This document shows positions 46,389 to 55,894 of a stretch of DNA of 64,000 bases, piece by piece. Under the pieces are notes generated by a model. The model had not been told where the DNA came from, did not search any database, and saw only the letters and a list, made by a program, of their open reading frames with translations. A program made the position numbers and the translations under genes. How positions within the stretch are numbered: position 1 is the stretch's first letter; each line of letters starts with the position of its first letter. This DNA comes from Bacteriovoracaceae bacterium (lineage in GTDB: Bacteria > Bdellovibrionota > Bacteriovoracia > Bacteriovoracales > Bacteriovoracaceae), in NCBI GenBank assembly GCA_024711325.1, contig JANJTC010000003.1, positions 186,001-250,000 on the forward strand, read 5' to 3'.

Positions 46389-47021
46389 ATGCCAAGACCA
46401 TTACTTATCCGCTCGGACAGACATCCTTACCATGTTACTTCTCGCTGCAATAATAAGGAATTTTTTCCTCTGCCTCTTGATGTGGTCTGGAAAATCATGC
46501 TCGAGCAATTGCTCTATCTTCATAAGAATCAATCTTTGGCGGTTCATGCCTTTGTTCTCATGGGCAATCACTTCCATTTACTGTGTCACACCCCCAAGGC
46601 CAACCTTGATCAAATCATGCAGATCTTTTTGCGTTCTACTTCGATTAAAATTTCCCGCGAGGCCAAGACTATCAACCATCTCTGGGGAAGTCGTTATAAG
46701 TGGAGCCTGATTGAATCCCAGACGCATTACTATCAAGTTTATCGCTACATTTTTCAAAATCCCATTCGTGCTGGCATTTGTAAGCGAGTCGAGGAATATC
46801 CTTTTTCAACTTTGAAGCAAGTTCCTATTCCGCTCCATTCTTTTATCCCTCTTTCTTTTGGGGGTTCGGAAGGGGAGCTTCATTGGTTAAACGAGCATTA
46901 TGAAAAAGAAGACGAGCAGCTGATTAAACTGGGACTTAAAAAACATCAGTTTGATGTGAGTCAGAGGAGGCTTAAGGCGTTTAATAAGTTAAGTTTGCCT
47001 AAAAAAGAATTGTTCGATTGA
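46389..47021 (+). CDS. REP-associated tyrosine transposase (RAYT)
   Basis: A 210-residue Y1-type HUH nuclease of the IS200-like fold. It has HPYHVTSRCNN, the HUH pair MGNHFHLL (H61 and H63) and YYQVYRYIFQNPIRAG with the nucleophile Tyr among Y115/Y118/Y120. RAYTs nick and rejoin REP sequences and are thought to spread them within the genome. This copy looks intact. REP-like elements on both sides, at 37505-41264 and 49973-50113, share the same core, so it is their likely source. Confidence 0.92.
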   Translation: MPRPLLIRSDRHPYHVTSRCNNKEFFPLPLDVVWKIMLEQLLYLHKNQSLAVHAFVLMGNHFHLLCHTPKANLDQIMQIFLRSTSIKISREAKTINHLWGSRYKWSLIESQTHYYQVYRYIFQNPIRAGICKRVEEYPFSTLKQVPIPLHSFIPLSFGGSEGELHWLNEHYEKEDEQLIKLGLKKHQFDVSQRRLKAFNKLSLPKKELFD

Positions 47022-47065: not shown

Positions 47066-47084
47066 GATAGTGTGATACACTATC
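47066..47084. promoter_or_regulatory. Palindromic operator candidate of brnTA
   Basis: GATAGTGT and ACACTATC are exact reverse complements around GAT, ending 11 bases before the brnT start and next to its SD. Autorepression by the BrnT-BrnA complex at such a site is established for the family; binding here is inferred. Confidence 0.6.
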
Positions 47085-47095
47085 AGGAGTTTAAT

Positions 47096-47422
47096 GTGGC
47101 CCAGTTTATATTCAGTGAATGGCTTGTGAAATTTATAGCTGAAAAGAACTTTCAGTTTGAATGGGACACAGGCAACAGAGTTAAAAGTTTTTATAAGCAT
47201 GGGATAGATTATTTAGAAGCGGAGGATGCTTTTAACGACCCTGCACTGATTGAATTAGGAATTCAGATTTCACCGATAGTAAATGAGGATCGCTTTGGAA
47301 TCATAGCTCAGACAAATAAAGGTAAATTGCTATTTGTTGCATTTACGATAAGAGCAGGACAGATTCGAATCATTTCAGCTCGTCATGCAAATAGTAAAGA
47401 GAGAGAATTATATGAAGGCTAA
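47096..47422 (+). CDS. brnT: BrnT-like ribonuclease toxin
   Basis: The toxin of a type II toxin-antitoxin pair; BrnT has a RelE-like fold and cleaves RNA. It shows FQFEWDTGNRVKSFYKHGID near the N terminus and LLFVAFTIRAGQIRIISARHAN with KERELYE at the end. The start is GTG 47096, since AGGAG is 6 bases upstream; a GTG at 47072 would put the operator inside the gene. An N-terminal extension of about 20 residues precedes the usual start. The gene appears intact, unlike the remnant at 39612. It overlaps brnA by 11 bases. Confidence 0.85.
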   Translation: MAQFIFSEWLVKFIAEKNFQFEWDTGNRVKSFYKHGIDYLEAEDAFNDPALIELGIQISPIVNEDRFGIIAQTNKGKLLFVAFTIRAGQIRIISARHANSKERELYEG

Positions 47423-47660
47423 ACAGAAAGTTAAAACCAATCCGAAAGATGCAGCCATGTATAAAAAAAATAAATGGGATGATGTTCAAGTTAAGGCCCA
47501 AAGAGATGAAAAACGGAAAAAACTAAGGCCAACGAGTGTTGCTTTAAATGAAGACACGGTTGATCAATTAAAAAGTATTGCGGAAGAAAGAGGAATTCCT
47601 TACCAAGTACTGATGAGGAGTTACATTTTAAAAGGAATTAAGGAGGATCTTGCTTCCTAG
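47412..47660 (+). CDS. brnA: BrnA-like antitoxin
   Basis: An 82-residue basic protein. The N terminus (KAKQKVKTNPKDAAMYKKNKWD) is the toxin-wrapping part, and SVALNEDTVDQLKSIAEE followed by YQVLMRSYILKGI is the ribbon-helix-helix DNA-binding part. ATG 47412 overlaps the brnT end, a coupling typical of the family. The stop is 1 base from the convergent gene at 47662. Confidence 0.85.
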   Translation: MKAKQKVKTNPKDAAMYKKNKWDDVQVKAQRDEKRKKLRPTSVALNEDTVDQLKSIAEERGIPYQVLMRSYILKGIKEDLAS

Positions 47661-48637: not shown

Positions 48638-49951
48638 ATGAAGCTAAGCATTATTGGCACGGGATACGTAGGTCTTGTAACTGGAACTTGTTTTGCAGAA
48701 ATGGGTCACGAAGTGACTTGTATAGATATCGACGCCGCAAAAGTTGAGCGAATGAAAAGAGGCGAGTGTCCAATTTTCGAACCAGGCCTTGAGCCATTAA
48801 TGCAGTCAAACTTTAATGAAGGCCGACTTCATTTCGCCAATAATTATGACTCAGTCACTAAGGCCGAGGCGATCTTCCTGGCAGTGGGAACTCCTTCTTC
48901 TGACGACGGTCAGGCCGATCTTAAGTATGTCTTTGGTGCTTGCGATTCAATCGCTCCTTATTTGAAAGACGGTTCAGTCGTCGTGGTCAAATCAACCGTT
49001 CCCGTTGGAACTGGTGACAAAGTCCGCGAACATCTAAAATCCAAAACCAACAAAAAATTCTTTGTAGTAAACAATCCTGAATTCCTAAAAGAGGGCTCAG
49101 CTGTAGAAGACTTCATGAAGCCTGAACGCATTATCATCGGTGCTCAAGAAGATAGCGCCGCTGACACTATCGAAGACCTTTACGAGCCATTTAATCGCCA
49201 AGTGAAGCGTACCATCCGCATGAGCAACATCTCGGCCGAGATGACAAAGTATGCTGCTAACTGTTTCCTCGCGACTAAAATCTCATTCATGAATGAAGTG
49301 GCCCGTCTGTGCGATATCGTTGGCGCTGACGTCGAAGAAGTTCGTCACGGCATTTCAACCGATTCTCGAATCGGTTCCCAGTTCTTATACCCAGGTCCTG
49401 GTTACGGCGGCTCTTGTTTTCCAAAAGACGTTAAGGCCCTCGTTTATACTGCTCGCGAACATGGAATCAATTTCAAAATTGTCGAGGCCGTCGAAGAAGT
49501 AAACAAAGAGCAGAAGAAGTACCTCGTTGGCAAAGTGAAGAAACACTTTAACGACGACCTCAAAGGTAAAATCTTCGTCCTTTGGGGAACAGCTTTCAAA
49601 GCTAACACCGATGATATCCGTGAAACTCCATCAATCGATACGGCCGTCGCCCTTCACCAGGCCGGCGCTAAAGTCCGCATTCACGACCCTGAGGCCGCGG
49701 ATCATTTCGAACAACTCATGACCAAGATGGGCATCCCTGTCGATCAATTCGAGAACAAGTACGACGCTCTAAACGGCGCCGATGGCTTACTCGTTATGAC
49801 CGAGTGGAAACAGTACCGCGCCCCAGATTTCGAAGAAATCAAATCGCGCCTTAAATCTCCACTTATCTTCGACGGCCGAAACCTCTACAACACCAAGAAG
49901 ATCCTAGAGCAAGGCTTCACCTATTACGCCATCGGCAAACACATCAAATAG
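48638..49951 (+). CDS. ugd: UDP-glucose 6-dehydrogenase
   Basis: This oxidises UDP-glucose to UDP-glucuronate with NAD+. It has the Rossmann start IGTGYVGLVTG, AVGTPSSDDG, VKSTVPVGT, NPEFLKEG, the catalytic Cys C260 in YGGSCFPKD, and GKIFVLWGTAFKANTDDIRE. Its 437 residues are standard. Codon use is clearly richer in C/G third positions than in the genes on both sides, which suggests a highly expressed or long-resident gene. The product may feed uronic-acid sugars. Confidence 0.97.
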   Translation: MKLSIIGTGYVGLVTGTCFAEMGHEVTCIDIDAAKVERMKRGECPIFEPGLEPLMQSNFNEGRLHFANNYDSVTKAEAIFLAVGTPSSDDGQADLKYVFGACDSIAPYLKDGSVVVVKSTVPVGTGDKVREHLKSKTNKKFFVVNNPEFLKEGSAVEDFMKPERIIIGAQEDSAADTIEDLYEPFNRQVKRTIRMSNISAEMTKYAANCFLATKISFMNEVARLCDIVGADVEEVRHGISTDSRIGSQFLYPGPGYGGSCFPKDVKALVYTAREHGINFKIVEAVEEVNKEQKKYLVGKVKKHFNDDLKGKIFVLWGTAFKANTDDIRETPSIDTAVALHQAGAKVRIHDPEAADHFEQLMTKMGIPVDQFENKYDALNGADGLLVMTEWKQYRAPDFEEIKSRLKSPLIFDGRNLYNTKKILEQGFTYYAIGKHIK

Positions 49952-49972
49952 TCCAAAAGACCAAAAGGGACC

Positions 49973-49993
49973 AAAAGGTGCCACATACCTTTT
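49973..49993. repeat. REP-like element
   Basis: AAAAGGTGCCACATACCTTTT, with perfect 7-bp arms AAAAGGT/ACCTTTT, lies 21 bases after the ugd stop. It could also act as its transcription end. Confidence 0.7.
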
Positions 49994-50089
49994 GAACAGT
50001 TTGCGGTTCCGACGTTGAAAGAAGCACAGGGCTATGTCGTAATGTTGTGTTGGATTTCAAACTCTGCTACCATTTTAATGTGATCAGGT

Positions 50090-50113
50090 GGGAAGGTGTT
50101 TGTGCACCTTCCC
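50090..50113. repeat. REP-like hairpin, 9-bp perfect stem
   Basis: GGGAAGGTG and CACCTTCCC flank TTTGTG. On the minus strand it falls 7 bases after the stop of the small ORF at 50121-50201 and could serve as its 3' structure. Confidence 0.6.
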
Positions 50114-50120
50114 TGAAACC

Positions 50121-50201
50121 TCATCTGATTAATTCTAAGACTGCAACCATAAGTTGAAGCCAAAGAATAATCAGAGCCAGTACCCTGATCATGTCTTCCA
50201 T
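50121..50201 (-). CDS. Very small hydrophobic peptide ORF, 26 codons
   Basis: It encodes MEDMIRVLALIILW followed by a Leu/Val-rich stretch ending LIR, a single predicted membrane helix. GAAGG lies 6 bases before the ATG. Two hairpins precede it (50225-50259) and a REP hairpin follows. This layout resembles small membrane peptides or type I toxins. No antisense RNA is evident, so the class is open. The rest of this 437-base gap holds the two REP copies and AT-rich sequence. Confidence 0.4.
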   Translation of the reverse strand: MEDMIRVLALIILWLQLMVAVLELIR

Positions 50202-50224
50202 AACATACCTTCTACTGGAAAAGG

Positions 50225-50259
50225 CGCCCTTCATTGGGCGTCTGGAAGACCCCGTCTTC
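50225..50259 (-). promoter_or_regulatory. Two leader hairpins before the 26-codon ORF
   Basis: In transcription order on the minus strand, GAAGAC-GGG-GTCTTC (50259-50245) is followed by CGCCC-AATGAA-GGGCG (50240-50225), then CC and TTTT. The second with its T run looks like a weak terminator or attenuator. Confidence 0.4.
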
Positions 50260-50388
50260 TTAACAGACATAGGGAATATTTTACGAATGGTTCTTAGAAC
50301 TAAGCGTATGAAATTTTATTTTTGAAATAAAAAAGAAAGTGCAAGTAAATGGACCATTGTTTACGTACAAATAGATTTTGAAGTTGTA

Positions 50389-52290
50389 TTAATAGCTACA
50401 GCTCTGAAAATCATCAATCGTCAAATCACTCAAACCTAAACTATTAGGCATTATTGAACAAAAAGTATTCTTTTTTAAAAGCATAGAACCATGGCTTATT
50501 CCTAAAAGAGCGACTCTTGTTTGAGAAGGATATTTTCGACCTAACCATCTGTCTGAAGAGGATGCATTAAAGTATTGAGTTGCTAAAGCATTTTTCCCCG
50601 GCAAACCAGGAGTCAACGGGCCAATAAATGCATCCCAAGTTTTCCCTTGTTTAACTCCAAACTCTATATATTCCGAAATATTTACACATTTTAAAGTTAT
50701 ATTTGGATCACTCGTTTTAATTTTTTCTTTTATTTGAAATGCAATTTTGGAACAATCCTCTAGATAGTCAGGTAAAGCAATTACCTTTGGAGTCTTTGAA
50801 GAAGTATAATTAGTAAGATCGAATTGATACTGTTGAAATTCGGAGAGTAAATACTCATTCTTTTTTATAATTTGAAAAATCCCACTTCGAGAAAATTCCT
50901 CTGTAATTGTATTCATCAACTTCTTACTTATCCAAGTGGGTACTTTGTTTTCGTCTCCATTGGCCAAGAAGAAATAATAGATGGGGTTGAAGAATTTTAT
51001 ATTATTATGTGTTTTGGTTGAAAAAGAATTCTCAAAAAGAAAAATATCTGGATTCGTATCACTCGTAGATATGTCTAATATCCAATTTTTTGTAAATAAA
51101 GTACCTTCAGTTATCCTCCCTTCATCTTTTGATTTAATTGAAAAACAATTCGGGGCTATACCAACTAGTAAATCATCTTCTTCAAACAAAGACCAACCAA
51201 ACTTTAAATAGATGCTCTCAAGATGATTTTGAATATTTGGAACATTATCAAATGAGATGCAGGTAGGAGAATCTTTACACCATCTAAAATTAGGGAGAAT
51301 CCAGTTTTTGCTCAATAAAATGGATTCAAGTTCTTTCCTGAAATGTTTTTGCGTATAATTTTTTTGATTGCAGCCTATAAATCCTTCTTTGAACTTAAAC
51401 TCCAAAACAACTCGTTTGCAACTTGAGGACAGTAGTGAATTTTCTTTATCTTCGCAATAAAGATTCTTTTCTGTGATCGCAGAATTAGATCTAAATTCTC
51501 CTGAGCGTCGAATAAAACGAGGATAAATGTGGTTCATTACGAAAAAACTGGACCAGTCATCTGCATTTGTAGGTATTAAAGAATAAACAGGCCCGCTAAT
51601 ATTGAGTGACGCTTTTTTTTGGGTTCCTTTATACTGATCAAAACCTACTGATGCAATTGTTAACAGTATTGGCAGAGTAAGGACTATTGTGAAAAACCTT
51701 GGTATCTGAAACATTTTTTCAGCATATAATTCGCTACTACTCTTAAGTAGTTTTTCTTCCTCTGTGGCCCGTATTAATAAGCCGATACAAAAGAAAGTCA
51801 ATAGAACTAAATTTAAAAAGTTGAAATGGATTATGACAAAAATAATAAAAATATGTATATAGCTCGCATAGATAGGATGCCTTACTAGCGAATATAGTCC
51901 ACTTGTCTTTACATTGTTTGACGATGGTAGGATTGAGAAAGATCTTCCTAGATTAAATAAAGCTATAAAACTTAAGACTATATAAAAAATTAGCGATGAA
52001 GAAAGAAAAATTAAACTGGTTTTTGAAAAAGTCCTATCTTCGATAGATACGAAATATATTGATCCAAAAGAAAGTAGTAAGCCTAAAGTCGTTTTCAAAT
52101 TTACAGATCGTTGACGATTGGTTGCTGTAAACATTAAGAATGCGATAATGATGGGTTTGAGAATACTGCTTAGGTGCGATAAATTTAGCCCTTCACTTGG
52201 AAAAGTTATGAGTACCTTTATTGCTTGTGATATGAAGAACAAAGGTAATATATATTTTTCTATAATAAGAAGAATATCTTCTTTCTTCAT
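50389..52290 (-). CDS. Fusion: ICMT/PEMT-like membrane methyltransferase plus solute-binding domain
   Basis: The N-terminal part (about residues 1-220) has about seven membrane helices and the signature of isoprenylcysteine/phospholipid methyltransferases: NLGRSFSILP, VKTSGLYSLVRHPIYASY and RATEEEKLL with a following Tyr. The rest (about 220-633) looks like an extracytoplasmic peptide-binding protein of family 5 (OppA-like): GPVYSLIPTN, FFVMNHIYPRFI and, late, TWDAFIGPLTPGLPG. The binding domain would face the periplasm, tethered by the last helix. The ATG overlaps the stop of the 42-codon gene (ATGA). The family calls rest on motifs only, and the SBP part is the less certain. Confidence 0.6.
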   Translation of the reverse strand: MKKEDILLIIEKYILPLFFISQAIKVLITFPSEGLNLSHLSSILKPIIIAFLMFTATNRQRSVNLKTTLGLLLSFGSIYFVSIEDRTFSKTSLIFLSSSLIFYIVLSFIALFNLGRSFSILPSSNNVKTSGLYSLVRHPIYASYIHIFIIFVIIHFNFLNLVLLTFFCIGLLIRATEEEKLLKSSSELYAEKMFQIPRFFTIVLTLPILLTIASVGFDQYKGTQKKASLNISGPVYSLIPTNADDWSSFFVMNHIYPRFIRRSGEFRSNSAITEKNLYCEDKENSLLSSSCKRVVLEFKFKEGFIGCNQKNYTQKHFRKELESILLSKNWILPNFRWCKDSPTCISFDNVPNIQNHLESIYLKFGWSLFEEDDLLVGIAPNCFSIKSKDEGRITEGTLFTKNWILDISTSDTNPDIFLFENSFSTKTHNNIKFFNPIYYFFLANGDENKVPTWISKKLMNTITEEFSRSGIFQIIKKNEYLLSEFQQYQFDLTNYTSSKTPKVIALPDYLEDCSKIAFQIKEKIKTSDPNITLKCVNISEYIEFGVKQGKTWDAFIGPLTPGLPGKNALATQYFNASSSDRWLGRKYPSQTRVALLGISHGSMLLKKNTFCSIMPNSLGLSDLTIDDFQSCSY

Positions 52291-52415
52291 TGCGGCTCAG
52301 ACTGGCCAATTGCAACTAGACTTAAACCTTTTGCATTAAGAATAATCCCTTTAGATTGAAAATAATAACAACCGAGAAGAAGAAATAAAAATCCAGTAAA
52401 CAGTTTAAGCTTCAT
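52287..52415 (-). CDS. 42-codon lipoprotein-like peptide
   Basis: It encodes MKLKLFTGFLFLLLGCYYFQ followed by a 22-residue tail ending SEPQ. Basic start, hydrophobic core and LLGC lipobox make it a candidate lipoprotein with a mature part of 27 residues. AGAGG lies 4 bases before ATG 52415. The stop overlaps the ATG of the methyltransferase/solute-binding fusion, and such ATGA coupling strongly supports translation. It could be a structural subunit or a precursor of a secreted signal peptide. Confidence 0.6.
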   Translation of the reverse strand: MKLKLFTGFLFLLLGCYYFQSKGIILNAKGLSLVAIGQSEPQ

Positions 52416-52456
52416 ATAACCTCTCTTGAAGAAGTTTGGTGATATGATGAATTCGC

Positions 52457-53173
52457 TCATTTCAAAAGTGAATTTAGTGTAATTGAAAATAATTCAGGCT
52501 GCTCAAGCATTGGAAAATGACCAGAATCTTTAATAATATGGGGTTGCTTTTGAAGGTGATTCTCCCAATCATTGCCGATAATTAGATCATTTTCCGCAAA
52601 TATAAAGGATATTTTATGCTCATATTTCTTGAGGTTTTGTAAACTTAATTTTATAGCTTCATCATCAAAGAGAAGTTTATCATTACCTATCATAAATGAA
52701 TCTTTCGTAATTTCTTTATATTTTTCTATATTTAATTCATCATTAAAATAAAGTTTCAATATCGATTCAAAATAATGAGAAAAATCCTGATTTGTGTTTA
52801 ATTCTATTTTCTCTAGAGTATTGATATACTTACTTACAATCTTATTTCTTTTGTTCGAAAATGGGGTACACACAAGAATTATCTTATTTATTTGGGATAC
52901 TGGAATCTCACTCAATAAGAGTAGTACTATGAGAGATCCATACGAATGAGCAACTAAATTTACTTCAGACAGCTTGTTGATATTACTCTTAATTTCCTTA
53001 AGTAAATCAGTTAAAGAAGGTATATAAGAAGGATCGTAATCTCTTTCATGATTTATTAAAACAATCCTCTCATGAGGGATGTTTTTGTAATATTTTTCTA
53101 AAAATATGTCCCAGTATTTACCTGATATCCATGGACCACCGGGAATGAATAATATTTTTTTGATCATATTCAC
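52457..53173 (-). CDS. Alpha/beta hydrolase
   Basis: A 238-residue serine hydrolase with FIPGGPW near the N terminus (oxyanion region), the nucleophile elbow NLVAHSYGS, the acid in FAENDLI and the His in DSGHFPMLEQPE. There is no signal peptide, so it is likely cytoplasmic. It is the first gene of the minus-strand operon that continues with the 42-codon peptide and the fusion protein, and it is 44 bases from the divergent histidine kinase. The substrate is unknown; an ester or lactone signal is possible. Confidence 0.82.
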   Translation of the reverse strand: MNMIKKILFIPGGPWISGKYWDIFLEKYYKNIPHERIVLINHERDYDPSYIPSLTDLLKEIKSNINKLSEVNLVAHSYGSLIVLLLLSEIPVSQINKIILVCTPFSNKRNKIVSKYINTLEKIELNTNQDFSHYFESILKLYFNDELNIEKYKEITKDSFMIGNDKLLFDDEAIKLSLQNLKKYEHKISFIFAENDLIIGNDWENHLQKQPHIIKDSGHFPMLEQPELFSITLNSLLK

Positions 53174-53217
53174 ATTAAACTGCCTGTTATTTCTATTTTC
53201 ATAATATTATACCGAAT

Positions 53218-54810
53218 ATGATTACTCTTAAAGATTATTTAACACGGAAGTTCAATACATCGATTCTAATTATAACCTCTATTTCTTGGATACTAATCCT
53301 CCTCTCTTTGATTAGTTGGGGTTTTTTCTCAGCTTCAAAAAATCTAAAACTTGAACTTGAGGAGTCTACTGGTACGGTAACCTCCTTGATTTATGACAAA
53401 AACTGGAGCTTGATAAATGAACATTTCAACTCCAAGGGAAGGGTAGAGTTTTTTTCATATGTAAATGCTAAATCCAAGCAAGACAACAGCATACTTTATG
53501 AGGCTAGATTTAATGGGGGATGGGAGTTACCTGAAATATGTGATACTAATCACTCATCTGAGCTAGTCGTCCTTAAGGCATGTACAAGATTAATTCGTTC
53601 TGAGGTCCTGCTTTTTGTTTCCATGTCGATGTTTCTTTATTTACTAGCATTATTAGTGCTGTTTAAAGTTATTCAACTGCGAATTTTATCATCTTTTGAT
53701 TCTCTCTCTATAGAAATTGGAAATTCCCTAGAGGAAGAACCTTTAGATTTGCAAAATAACAGGTTGAAAATCGAAGAGATTGAAAATATCAAAACAATGG
53801 TTGAGACAAAAAAAAAGGAACTAAAAAAGACATCTCAAGAAGCAGCCTTTATAAAGCTTTCTCAAAAAGTAACCCATGACTTAAGGTCCCCGTTAGCCGT
53901 GATAGCAAATATTTCCAATAAAGATGAATGGGACTCTCAGGATAAAGATATTTTAAAAACCTCAGCACTAATGTTGCATGATATCTCAAGCTATTTGTTA
54001 GACACGTCTTTGAAGAGCACAAGCAAGTTGCCCCGCTTCTCTAGGTTGAATATTGTGAATGAAATTAAAGCTATAATAAAATTGAAAGAAGAAGAGTTCC
54101 CGAAATATAAAGGTACCATTTGTTTTAAGAATGAAGTGCCTACCTCTGCATGGGCATGGCTCAATCATACAGAGTTCAGTCGAGTCCTATCGAATATTAT
54201 CAATAATAGTTTAGAATCAAGCCAAACTCCAAAAATTGATGTTGAATTGACCTTTAGTGATAGTTTGATTTTGCGTGTTAAAGACAATGGGCCTGGTTTT
54301 CCCAAAGAAGTCTTAGGAAGTTTTCATTCATCCAGAGCAAAATCGACCAAGAATTTTGGCCATGGGATTGGTTTAATTTCCGCCAAAACATCGATTTCTC
54401 AGATGGGAGGAGTACTAACTATTTCCAATAAATTGGGAGCTTGTGTTGAAATTTGCTTCCCTAAGGATGTTATCTTCTTGGAGAAAGCTCCGATAATTCT
54501 AATTGACGATGATAAGTATATTAGACATAGCTGGATCAGCTTAGCCGAAAGGTATAATTTTGAGATTAAAGTATTTAGAGGATTTGAAGAATTTCTCGCA
54601 GAAATTGATCAGCTTGATAGAGATTCTGAAGTTTTCATAGATTCAAACTTGGGAAACAATAGTCGAGGTGAGGACCTAATTTTCAAAGTGAAAGACTTGG
54701 GTTTTAGGATTGTTAATATTCAAACAGGTTATAATGAATCTGAAGTGAAAATAGTCGAAGGCTTAAATAATATTGTCTCTAAAGAGTTTCCCTATACAGC
54801 TAAGATATGA
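53218..54810 (+). CDS. Hybrid histidine kinase with C-terminal receiver
   Basis: A membrane sensor of 530 residues. TM1 (about 17-37) and TM2 (about 128-150) enclose a periplasmic sensing region of about 90 residues with two Cys. The dimerisation helix carries the phospho-acceptor His H220 (VTHDLRSPLAVI), followed by the N box NIINNSLES, DNGPGFP and GHGIGL of the ATPase. A receiver follows, with ILIDDDK, the acceptor D475 (VFIDSNLG) and a late Lys in VSKEFP. No output domain or separate response regulator is beside it. It is divergent from the hydrolase-peptide-fusion operon, and its end overlaps the GT4 gene by 11 bases. Confidence 0.88.
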   Translation: MITLKDYLTRKFNTSILIITSISWILILLSLISWGFFSASKNLKLELEESTGTVTSLIYDKNWSLINEHFNSKGRVEFFSYVNAKSKQDNSILYEARFNGGWELPEICDTNHSSELVVLKACTRLIRSEVLLFVSMSMFLYLLALLVLFKVIQLRILSSFDSLSIEIGNSLEEEPLDLQNNRLKIEEIENIKTMVETKKKELKKTSQEAAFIKLSQKVTHDLRSPLAVIANISNKDEWDSQDKDILKTSALMLHDISSYLLDTSLKSTSKLPRFSRLNIVNEIKAIIKLKEEEFPKYKGTICFKNEVPTSAWAWLNHTEFSRVLSNIINNSLESSQTPKIDVELTFSDSLILRVKDNGPGFPKEVLGSFHSSRAKSTKNFGHGIGLISAKTSISQMGGVLTISNKLGACVEICFPKDVIFLEKAPIILIDDDKYIRHSWISLAERYNFEIKVFRGFEEFLAEIDQLDRDSEVFIDSNLGNNSRGEDLIFKVKDLGFRIVNIQTGYNESEVKIVEGLNNIVSKEFPYTAKI

Positions 54811-55894
54811 TTTTAAACAGAATGTTAATATTGTTAGAGCTATCAAATTTTTTTGAAACCTTTTCTAAACCGTTCTCTTTGAGTTCCTCCGACCTTTTAG
54901 AGTTCTCTATTAGTTCCCGTACGTTCTTAGTTAGGTTAGCAACATCCCCCAACCCCACCAAAAACCCTGTAACCCCATCCTCAATAATCTCCGGATTCGA
55001 ACTCACATCCCAAGCAATCGTCGGCACTCCATACTGAAGCGTCTCAATCAACGTATTCGCCGACCCTTCATACAAACTCGTAAACACAAACACATCAAGC
55101 GAATTAAAAAACGCCGGCATATCATTCACATGACCCAATAGCTTAACTTCATTCTTAAGCCCTTGATCATCAATCATTCGCTGAAGCTCACCCCGAAGTT
55201 CACCTTCACCAGCAATCAGAACTTTAAACTTAATCCCATCGGCTTTGAGAAGCGTCGCCATCTCAATCAAATACTTCTGCCCCTTCTGCTCGGTCAAGCG
55301 ACCTGCATTCCCAATAATGATTTCTTGCTCATCCTTCTCATAAAGCTTGCGACTTTTATCCACAGGTTTTGAAGTATCAACACCGTTATATATCAAGACC
55401 ATCTTATCTTCCGGAAACCAACTCTCATTGCCTTGTTTTAAACTTCGACCGATCTCTTTTGAGTTCACAATCACATGAGTGAGAATCTTGGTGAATAGAA
55501 ATCGGTTGAGCCAGGTGTTTCTAAGAGGGTGAGGCATGCCTCGGCGATAAATAATCTTCTTCACACCAGCCAGCTTGGCGGCAATCCCAGCAAGCTTTAA
55601 ATCAGAAGGCAAATTCATCACGATGGCGTCTACGTTCTGTGAACGGAAGAACATCATCATCACAAGAATCTTGATAGGGTTGAGGAAACTTAGATTACCC
55701 ACACGGAAACGGTATACGTCTTGTTTTTCCTGAATACCTTTGGTGGCAATTTGTGACTGCATGTTGGTAACAAGAATGGTCTTGAAACCACGGCGCTGAA
55801 ATTCTTTGCAGGTAGTGAGGTGCCACTTTTCACCGCCGCCCCAGGCCTTATTGGAATTGAAGAAACAAATTGTTTTAGATTGTGGGTTATTCAT
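54800..55894 (-). CDS. GT4 family glycosyltransferase
   Basis: A 364-residue GT-B enzyme. It has NKAWGGGEKWHL at the N terminus, IIYRRGMPHPL, VLIYNGVDTSK, IIIGNAGRLTEQKG at the hinge and FTSLYEGSANTLIETLQYGVPTIAWD as donor motif. Base composition changes sharply near 54940: the last 45 codons are AT-rich like the island to the left, while the rest is richer in G/C. This marks a likely recombination point. folA lies 26 bases upstream on the same strand. Confidence 0.9.
   Translation of the reverse strand: MNNPQSKTICFFNSNKAWGGGEKWHLTTCKEFQRRGFKTILVTNMQSQIATKGIQEKQDVYRFRVGNLSFLNPIKILVMMMFFRSQNVDAIVMNLPSDLKLAGIAAKLAGVKKIIYRRGMPHPLRNTWLNRFLFTKILTHVIVNSKEIGRSLKQGNESWFPEDKMVLIYNGVDTSKPVDKSRKLYEKDEQEIIIGNAGRLTEQKGQKYLIEMATLLKADGIKFKVLIAGEGELRGELQRMIDDQGLKNEVKLLGHVNDMPAFFNSLDVFVFTSLYEGSANTLIETLQYGVPTIAWDVSSNPEIIEDGVTGFLVGLGDVANLTKNVRELIENSKRSEELKENGLEKVSKKFDSSNNINILFKIIS

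Follow-up and report, generated by a model that had tools for sequence, protein, structure and literature searches.

A four-gene island of a Bacteriovoracaceae bacterium as a candidate domain-fused member of an undescribed, putative peptide-pheromone module of Bdellovibrionota

This analysis concerns a four-gene island at positions 50389-54810 of a 64,000-nucleotide stretch of DNA from a Bacteriovoracaceae bacterium (source genome G000; stretch G000:C3:186001-250000, hereafter the window), which had been noticed in a first-pass annotation. The island encodes an alpha/beta hydrolase (ABH), a 42-codon peptide (PEP), an ICMT-like membrane methyltransferase fused to a C-terminal domain (C-domain) and, divergently, a hybrid histidine kinase (HK). 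We propose, with a probability of roughly 0.6, that the island represents a divergent, domain-fused form of an autoregulated peptide-pheromone module of Bdellovibrionota not yet described. Genomes, loci and alignments or profiles are designated by the letters G, L and A, respectively. The island and its neighbours comprise the following features.

48638-49951, plus strand: ugd, left neighbour of the island
50389-52290, minus strand: ICMT/C-domain fusion protein, 633 aa, open reading frame (ORF) intact
50389-51648, minus strand: C-domain, residues ~215-633 (~420 residues), extracytoplasmic by predicted topology, probably diverged SBP_bac_5-like
51649-52290, minus strand: N-terminal methyltransferase domain, ICMT-like and integral to the membrane, together with the last membrane span, with the RHPIY and R...EEE motif region (PF04140, alignment, hydropathy)
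52287-52415, minus strand: 42-codon peptide, predicted to be exported, MKLKLFTGFLFLLLGCYYFQSKGIILNAKGLSLVAIGQSEPQ, predicted signal precursor (ORF, counterpart in G011, slot)
52457-53173, minus strand: alpha/beta hydrolase, 238 aa, GTG start (PF00561/PF12697, alignment)
53218-54810, plus strand: hybrid histidine kinase, 530 aa (PF02518, weak PF00072, membrane spans)
54800-55894, minus strand: glycosyltransferase (GT), right neighbour of the island
49950-54950, no strand: cassette divergent from G011, its right edge inside the 3' end of the GT gene

All four ORFs are intact at the positions, in the order and with the couplings first reported for them: the 42-codon ORF and the 633-aa gene share an ATGA overlap, and the kinase start diverges from the hydrolase start across a gap of 44 bases. 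The island is more than a chance arrangement, because G011, a genome of the same genus, has the same four open genes, a 42-aa peptide included, in the same order and place. Beyond this exact arrangement, the genes also occur together in related forms in G281, where a fused ICMT-C-domain gene accompanies a hydrolase, a peptide and a kinase fragment, and as a widespread unfused set. The AT-richness attributed to the island relative to its flanks holds against the ten neighbouring genes compared (GC content of 0.28-0.35 vs 0.40-0.47) and fails against the window's opening ~36 kb, which is about as AT-rich as the island genes.

The ICMT-like assignment stood up well, residues 100-183 of the 633-aa protein matching PF04140 above the gathering score (E=3.4e-9, 37.5 bits vs a cut-off of 24) and two unfused module ICMTs giving 35.7 and 36.6 bits; H-P-x-Y, R and E are kept in a ten-row ICMT alignment, and the last membrane span lies around residues 199-217 by hydropathy. 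The equivalog NF040696 reached only 25.5 of 160 bits on the window ICMT, and in the 93%-complete source genome no protein other than the fused one matches the ICMT family at E<=0.001. The hydrolase matches Abhydrolase_1 (PF00561, E=3.1e-7) and PF12697 and shows the motifs IPGGP, HSYGS (nucleophile) and GHFPML (histidine), together with ENDLIIG, which we take to hold the acid of the catalytic site; no signal peptide was seen in it, and H-S-x-G and the late H are invariant among nine aligned hydrolases. By hydropathy and motifs the kinase comprises two membrane spans, a short extracytoplasmic sensor, an H-box (KVTHDLRSP), an HATPase domain (HATPase_c, PF02518, E=3.9e-17) and a C-terminal receiver, in agreement with the hybrid kinase and periplasmic sensor originally annotated. 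The receiver matches Response_reg (PF00072) weakly (E=0.0047, 17.5 bits, below the cut-off of 30.2) and is 32-33% identical to the stand-alone receiver (REC) proteins of G005 and G012 (E of 2e-15 and 6e-15), and the sensor region could be aligned with those of G011, G021, G176 and the module kinases.

The unfused module consists of an SBP_bac_5 solute-binding protein (SBP), a histidine kinase, a sigma-54 response regulator (RR), a hydrolase, a peptide and an ICMT. G005 and G012 and, elsewhere, G008, G009, G018, G028 and G056 have the ICMT and hydrolase beside a separate SBP and kinase, with the sigma-54 regulator present in all of them except G005 and G012; the one module kinase checked, that of G018, has two membrane spans. 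Both module SBPs tested match SBP_bac_5 (PF00496; 173 and 165 bits vs 32.4), and the PDB relatives of A1, an alignment of six module SBPs, are binders of di- or oligopeptides, haem or nickel, the best of them binding peptides or haem, with PrgZ among the matches. A scan of 84,980 species genomes with A1, which misses distant module forms because two pattern words drive it, gave 41 SBP loci: 27 with hydrolase and ICMT genes downstream, 7 ending at or just short of a contig end (L098, L109, L115, L117, L121, L122, and L123) and 7 with other SBPs lacking the module (L124-L130). The order SBP-HK-(RR)-ABH-PEP-ICMT is kept in 27/27 loci that reach the module end, although in L113, L118, L119, and L120 the contig begins within the SBP gene. 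The regulator is missing from two of them (L105 and L116, of the same genus), in both of which a receiver protein follows the ICMT, and L097, L108, and L114 each have an interrupted or split gene. Among 368 genomes of the phylum, 28 hold the SBP at E<=1e-80. The module is spread patchily over several families.

Some of these loci bear individual peculiarities. An insertion that carries a 606-aa ORF splits the hydrolase of L097 (G212; L178:1447-5197), and that of a second module in the same genome (L177) is unsplit; the kinase of L114 (G063; L180:3987-5692) is interrupted by about 1.7 kb; and L110, in which the module is complete, belongs to a record that bears the label Saprospiraceae, through either a binning error or a transfer.

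A small ORF fills the gap between hydrolase and ICMT in 27/27 module loci, giving 28 peptides since L100 has two in tandem, and a small ORF predicted to be exported stands in the same slot in the window, G011, G281, G333 and G358. The 28 unfused peptides, which are not independent since several loci are near relatives, are 37-118 aa long and have an export-type N-terminus (K2 in 27/28, L12 and A13 in 26/28, Gln19 in 27/28), in many cases followed after the hydrophobic part by an A-x-A-like stretch (A25 in 13/28). Their C-terminus reads P-[GTH]-[IVA]-stop, with P at -3 and I, V or A at -1 in 28/28 each, compared with 3.0% Pro in the middle parts of the peptides. The codons of the tail vary (for Pro, CCA 15, CCT 10, CCG 2, and CCC 1), and selection therefore acts on the protein. 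The idea that the tail is a mere side effect of the ribosome site of the ICMT gene was rejected on the same codon variation, on the presence of AGGA in only 11/28 and on L100, whose first tandem peptide ends 146 nt before the ICMT ORF; part of this ribosome site may nevertheless overlap the tail codons, GGA being the commonest at -2 (17/28). The two tandem genes of L100 (L100:13992-14267) encode differing tails, EHPGV and DHPGA, within one module.

A profile of 19 peptides (A8), partly circular in that 18 came from the same module loci, matched 62 of the 368 phylum genomes at E<=0.05 and 28 at E<=1e-8. Twenty-six of these 28 are among the 28 SBP genomes defined above, and the other two, G065 and G067, have ABH-PEP-ICMT. 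The SBP genomes left without a peptide at E<=1e-8 are G333 and G354, the contig of the latter ending in the regulator gene. Weaker matches with module context came from a second G150 locus (1.1e-5), G069 (9.3e-5) and G358 (5.8e-4); many other weak matches are confined to the N-terminal portion of the profile and may stem from ordinary signal peptides. A 117-aa peptide gave a weak, below-cut-off match to YkyA (E=0.0019, 18.4 of 28.8 bits), which was not used.

The window peptide belongs to no Pfam family. From its slot, its Gln at position 20, its tail EPQ (P at -2) and its length, shared with the G011, G005 and G012 counterparts, we regard it as a divergent member of the PEP family even though it has no match to the family's hidden Markov model (HMM). 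The G011 peptide (42 aa, 43% identical) ends in GEPH, and that of G281, in the same slot, in ADPS. The lipoprotein-like character ascribed to the window peptide applies to it and to G011, which share a lipobox Cys16 lacking in G281 and at position 16 of 28/28 unfused peptides; because of this restriction, lipidation is not a feature of the family.

Permuted and fused forms suggest how the window arrangement may have arisen. The order in G358, RR-ABH-PEP-ICMT-SBP-HK, is the main one circularly permuted; G333 reads ABH-PEP-ICMT-SBP-HK with a receiver fused to the kinase; and G013 reads ICMT-SBP-HK, accompanied by a weak candidate for the peptide and by no recognisable hydrolase. The fusion with adjacent hydrolase and peptide occurs in G281 (of another family), G011 and the window; in G281 the ICMT part is broken across two frames, and the kinase is not divergent and runs to the contig end. 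The gene order ICMT then SBP in G358, G333 and G013 thus equals the order of the fused domains, and a path may be drawn from permuted types such as G358 and G333 to the fused types of G281, G011 and the window.

Partial forms fit a division of the module into a putative sender half (ABH, PEP, ICMT) and a putative receiver half (SBP, HK). In G176, a C-domain with its own membrane span lies 23 bp from a divergent kinase, with a receiver in addition, and no hydrolase, peptide or ICMT match was found in the 14 kb fetched. G021 was considered as a clean receiver-only case and qualifies only in part, G176 being cleaner: beside its C-domain it has a 47-codon hydrolase relic and the start of a kinase that runs off the contig, and no usual start codon precedes the membrane span of the C-domain, so this locus may be decaying, perhaps after a deletion. 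As a separate observation, G065 (L194:4899-6228) is a possible sender-only locus: it has a shortened hydrolase (209 aa), a peptide and an ICMT, and the stretch that was fetched gave no match to an SBP, kinase or regulator.

The fused C-domain is likely a diverged SBP, mainly on account of gene order, the order ABH-PEP-ICMT-SBP in L183 and L196 being the domain order of the fusion. Its own relatives are few. A first contig scan with the window C-domain detected none, and a search of the 368 phylum genomes gave six at E<=0.01, one of which (G095, E 9.1e-4) was dropped as spurious for its five stops inside 93 residues, leaving homologues in four other genomes. In local hhalign comparisons, the five C-domains and the module SBPs scored 31-32 over 281-337 collinear columns starting from the SBP N-terminal region, compared with maxima of 21.3 (A1) and 24.7 (A5) in 60 column shuffles and 22.2 and 20.6 with reversed profiles.

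Upstream of the SBP ORF, a -24/-12 site with at least 10 of 11 bases lies 46-59 nt away in 13/30 loci having enough upstream sequence, and one with at least 9 bases in 18/30, against 0.57% and 1.87%, respectively, of 6,000 random 180-nt windows from the same loci; near relatives are included, so the 13 are not 13 independent events. These promoter-like sites before the operon suggest autoinduction. The window island has no sigma-54 site, in line with its missing regulator, and a lone one-mismatch match in the window was dismissed as being at chance level.

The comparison with G011 showed that the island diverges as a block. Protein identity is 64% for the fused protein, 43% for the peptide, 51% for the hydrolase and 59% for the kinase, while the flanking proteins are 94.8-99.5% identical (ugd, 99.5%) with the exceptions of GT (89.6%) and a Y1 transposase (77.6%). 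In 200-base bins, nucleotide identity is 0.84-0.98 outside and 0.51-0.76 inside, apart from two unalignable intergenic bins (0.31-0.35), and the edges are sharp, near 49,940-50,020 and 54,940-54,960, the latter inside the GT gene. At third positions of conserved residues with four- or sixfold codons, identity is 33-50% in the four island genes vs 64-83% in 9/10 neighbours, the exception being the Y1 transposase (46389-47021, 32%). Fast evolution alone is not favoured for the island, and because third positions diverge too and the edges are sharp, exchange of whole cassettes, which is known from pherotype loci, looks like a better fit than faster protein evolution; ancient alleles are also possible.

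The ugd-GT interval is a variable insertion hotspot. GT was found at E<=1e-60 in 17/26 genus genomes searched, with ugd adjacent in 5, other genes between in 9 (among them the window and G011 with this cassette and G005 and G012 with the unfused module) and ugd outside the fetched stretch in 3. The interval of G015 (L054:6782-10985) holds a kinase-receiver hybrid and, in divergent orientation, an SBP_bac_5 gene that spans two ORFs of 225 and 253 aa and has a YcaO protein (PF02624, E=2.8e-9) next to it downstream; it is perhaps a parallel peptide system in which YcaO replaces ICMT. Another YcaO protein (E=3.4e-10) lies in G021 (L061:8418-9398), on the far side of ugd from this interval. In the window, a BrnT-like toxin (PF04365, E=1e-19) and an overlapping 91-aa ORF, a possible antitoxin (47072-47660), adjoin the Y1 (IS200-type) transposase, a relative of which is found near ugd in several genus genomes.

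We propose the following model for the module: (i) PEP would be exported via its hydrophobic N-terminus, leaving the C-terminal tail outside the cytoplasmic membrane; (ii) the ICMT-like enzyme would act on it, in the simplest case by methylating the C-terminal carboxyl, and the hydrolase, probably cytoplasmic, would process PEP or reverse the ester; (iii) the extracytoplasmic SBP_bac_5 protein, or in the window the ICMT-fused domain, would bind the mature tail and present it to the short kinase sensor; and (iv) in the parent module, phosphate from the kinase would reach the sigma-54 regulator, which would activate the operon's own -24/-12 promoter and so close a positive feedback loop. The window version has no regulator, and its kinase carries a receiver domain. 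The gene set of the unfused relatives strengthens the earlier suggestion of an island that produces or modifies a small peptide and also senses it, which as a whole is partly borne out; peptide export and release, methylation, sensing and phosphorelay, like the identity of the C-domain as an SBP, are steps that we infer from sequence.

Several observations weigh against this reading. Known ICMT enzymes methylate prenylcysteine, and no PEP tail ends in Cys, nor does the window peptide have a C-terminal CaaX. The window peptide also departs from the C-terminal P-x-[IVA]-stop pattern shared by 28/28 unfused members, window-type tails (EPQ, EPH, ADPS) lack the last residue of the family, the G333 and G013 peptides read GGI and GGV at the tail, and the PEP HMM found no match in G000, G011, G013 or G333 at E<=0.05. 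No exporter or protease gene lies between the contiguous module genes, the surroundings not having been searched for one. As for the promoter, 17/30 loci have no strong sigma-54 site, and the contrast between loci without and with a regulator is weak because L095, L096 and L114, which have one, score zero like the regulator-less L105 and L116 (and the contig-cut L098 and L122). For the C-domain, the "OppA-like" domain of the first-pass annotation is not visible by direct search, since the C-terminal ~420 residues gave no match at E<=1 to any Pfam or NCBIfam model; hhalign gave nothing against module SBPs in global mode, probabilities of only 0.2-8%, and a score of 16.8, within 40 shuffles, against a three-row alignment of the G333, G013 and G358 SBPs. 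PDB sequence searches with profiles A2 and A3 returned chance-level matches only (best E of 0.13 and 0.97), and AlphaFold reached a pLDDT of 41.4 with 22 module SBPs and 37.4 for the C-domain alone. The claim of an OppA-like domain thus keeps the gene order and mixed profile evidence on its side and receives no support from structure prediction or Pfam.

Other explanations were weighed against the pheromone model. The strongest, in our view unlikely but deserving attention, is a tethered-ligand checkpoint in which PEP is not released: its N-terminus would be a membrane anchor and its tail would occupy the SBP, so that methylation by ICMT and hydrolysis by ABH would report metabolic or envelope state to the kinase within one cell. 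The N-terminal segment, with its Gln19, is indeed more conserved than a discarded signal peptide requires, PEP length varies widely, and ICMT-family enzymes are membrane proteins, but the A-x-A-like stretch and the autoinduction site suit a released signal better. We lend less credence still to nutrient sensing, in which SBP and kinase would sense foreign or prey peptides, PEP would be accessory, and ICMT and ABH would act on lipids or small molecules. The ligands of the PDB relatives, the predators in the phylum and the matches of the ICMTs to PEMT, phospholipid methyltransferase, agree with it; the C-terminal motif kept in all peptides and the constant place of PEP between ABH and ICMT do not, and the contiguous module genes leave no space for permease genes, for which the surroundings were not searched.

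A self-sensed modified toxin or bacteriocin, with PEP as the antimicrobial precursor and ABH or ICMT serving maturation or immunity, would account for an exported precursor beside a modifying enzyme and for a cassette diverging as a block. It is improbable, however, given a tail conserved rather than variable across families and the SBP and kinase preceding the peptide in the 27 loci (four SBPs being cut as above). A mere neighbourhood of unrelated genes brought together in a recombination hotspot has next to no likelihood: the ugd-GT interval is such a variable site, but the module order never changes in those loci and in 25/27 neither ugd nor GT was matched within the stretch fetched, which places these loci elsewhere. 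Chance is therefore refuted for the gene set and could apply to details only.

The proposed pheromone module shares traits with several known systems. As in ComQXPA and Agr of Firmicutes, a small precursor is encoded with an adjacent membrane enzyme and a kinase, and parts of the cassette diverge together between conserved flanks; unlike them, it has an ICMT-like methyltransferase, an SBP_bac_5 protein, a hydrolase and a sigma-54 regulator and occurs in a Gram-negative phylum, and no Pfam match to the ComQ prenyltransferase or AgrB was found among the four island proteins. As in LuxPQ and other SBP-plus-kinase receptors, an extracytoplasmic binding protein is predicted to feed a kinase, here of oligopeptide family 5 and encoded with its presumed peptide ligand. 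In the yeast a-factor pathway, an ICMT-family membrane enzyme (Ste14) acts on a peptide precursor, and here one is encoded beside such a precursor, with no CaaX box or C-terminal Cys but a P-G-I/V tail. PrgZ of Enterococcus and the module SBP both belong to the SBP_bac_5 family, which includes binders of short pheromone peptides, but PrgZ feeds an importer, and in the module the gene after the SBP encodes a kinase.

No description of the module was found in the open-access literature searched, an absence that is not proof, and passages of PMC6722419 proved unrelated to it. We regard the gene set as real and, in the literature searched, undescribed, as had been suggested for the island at the outset, and it may work like peptide quorum sensing. 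More tentatively, and with considerable doubt, it may represent a new Gram-negative pheromone class combining Sec export, P-G-I-type tails, C-terminal methyl esters made by ICMT, an oligopeptide-type SBP with a kinase, sigma-54 self-induction, exchangeable signal-receptor cassettes that spread between strains, and receiver-only listeners.

We know of no peptide quorum-sensing system described for Bdellovibrionota, nor did the open-access papers searched show one, and to our knowledge the substrates of bacterial ICMT-like enzymes are mostly unknown. The module provides candidate signals short enough to be synthesised, along with a candidate receptor pair and a promoter on which reporters could be built. 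If our proposal is true, it would suggest that bacterial ICMT-like enzymes can modify peptide signals, and the relatives of predatory bacteria would possess a new way of cell-cell communication.

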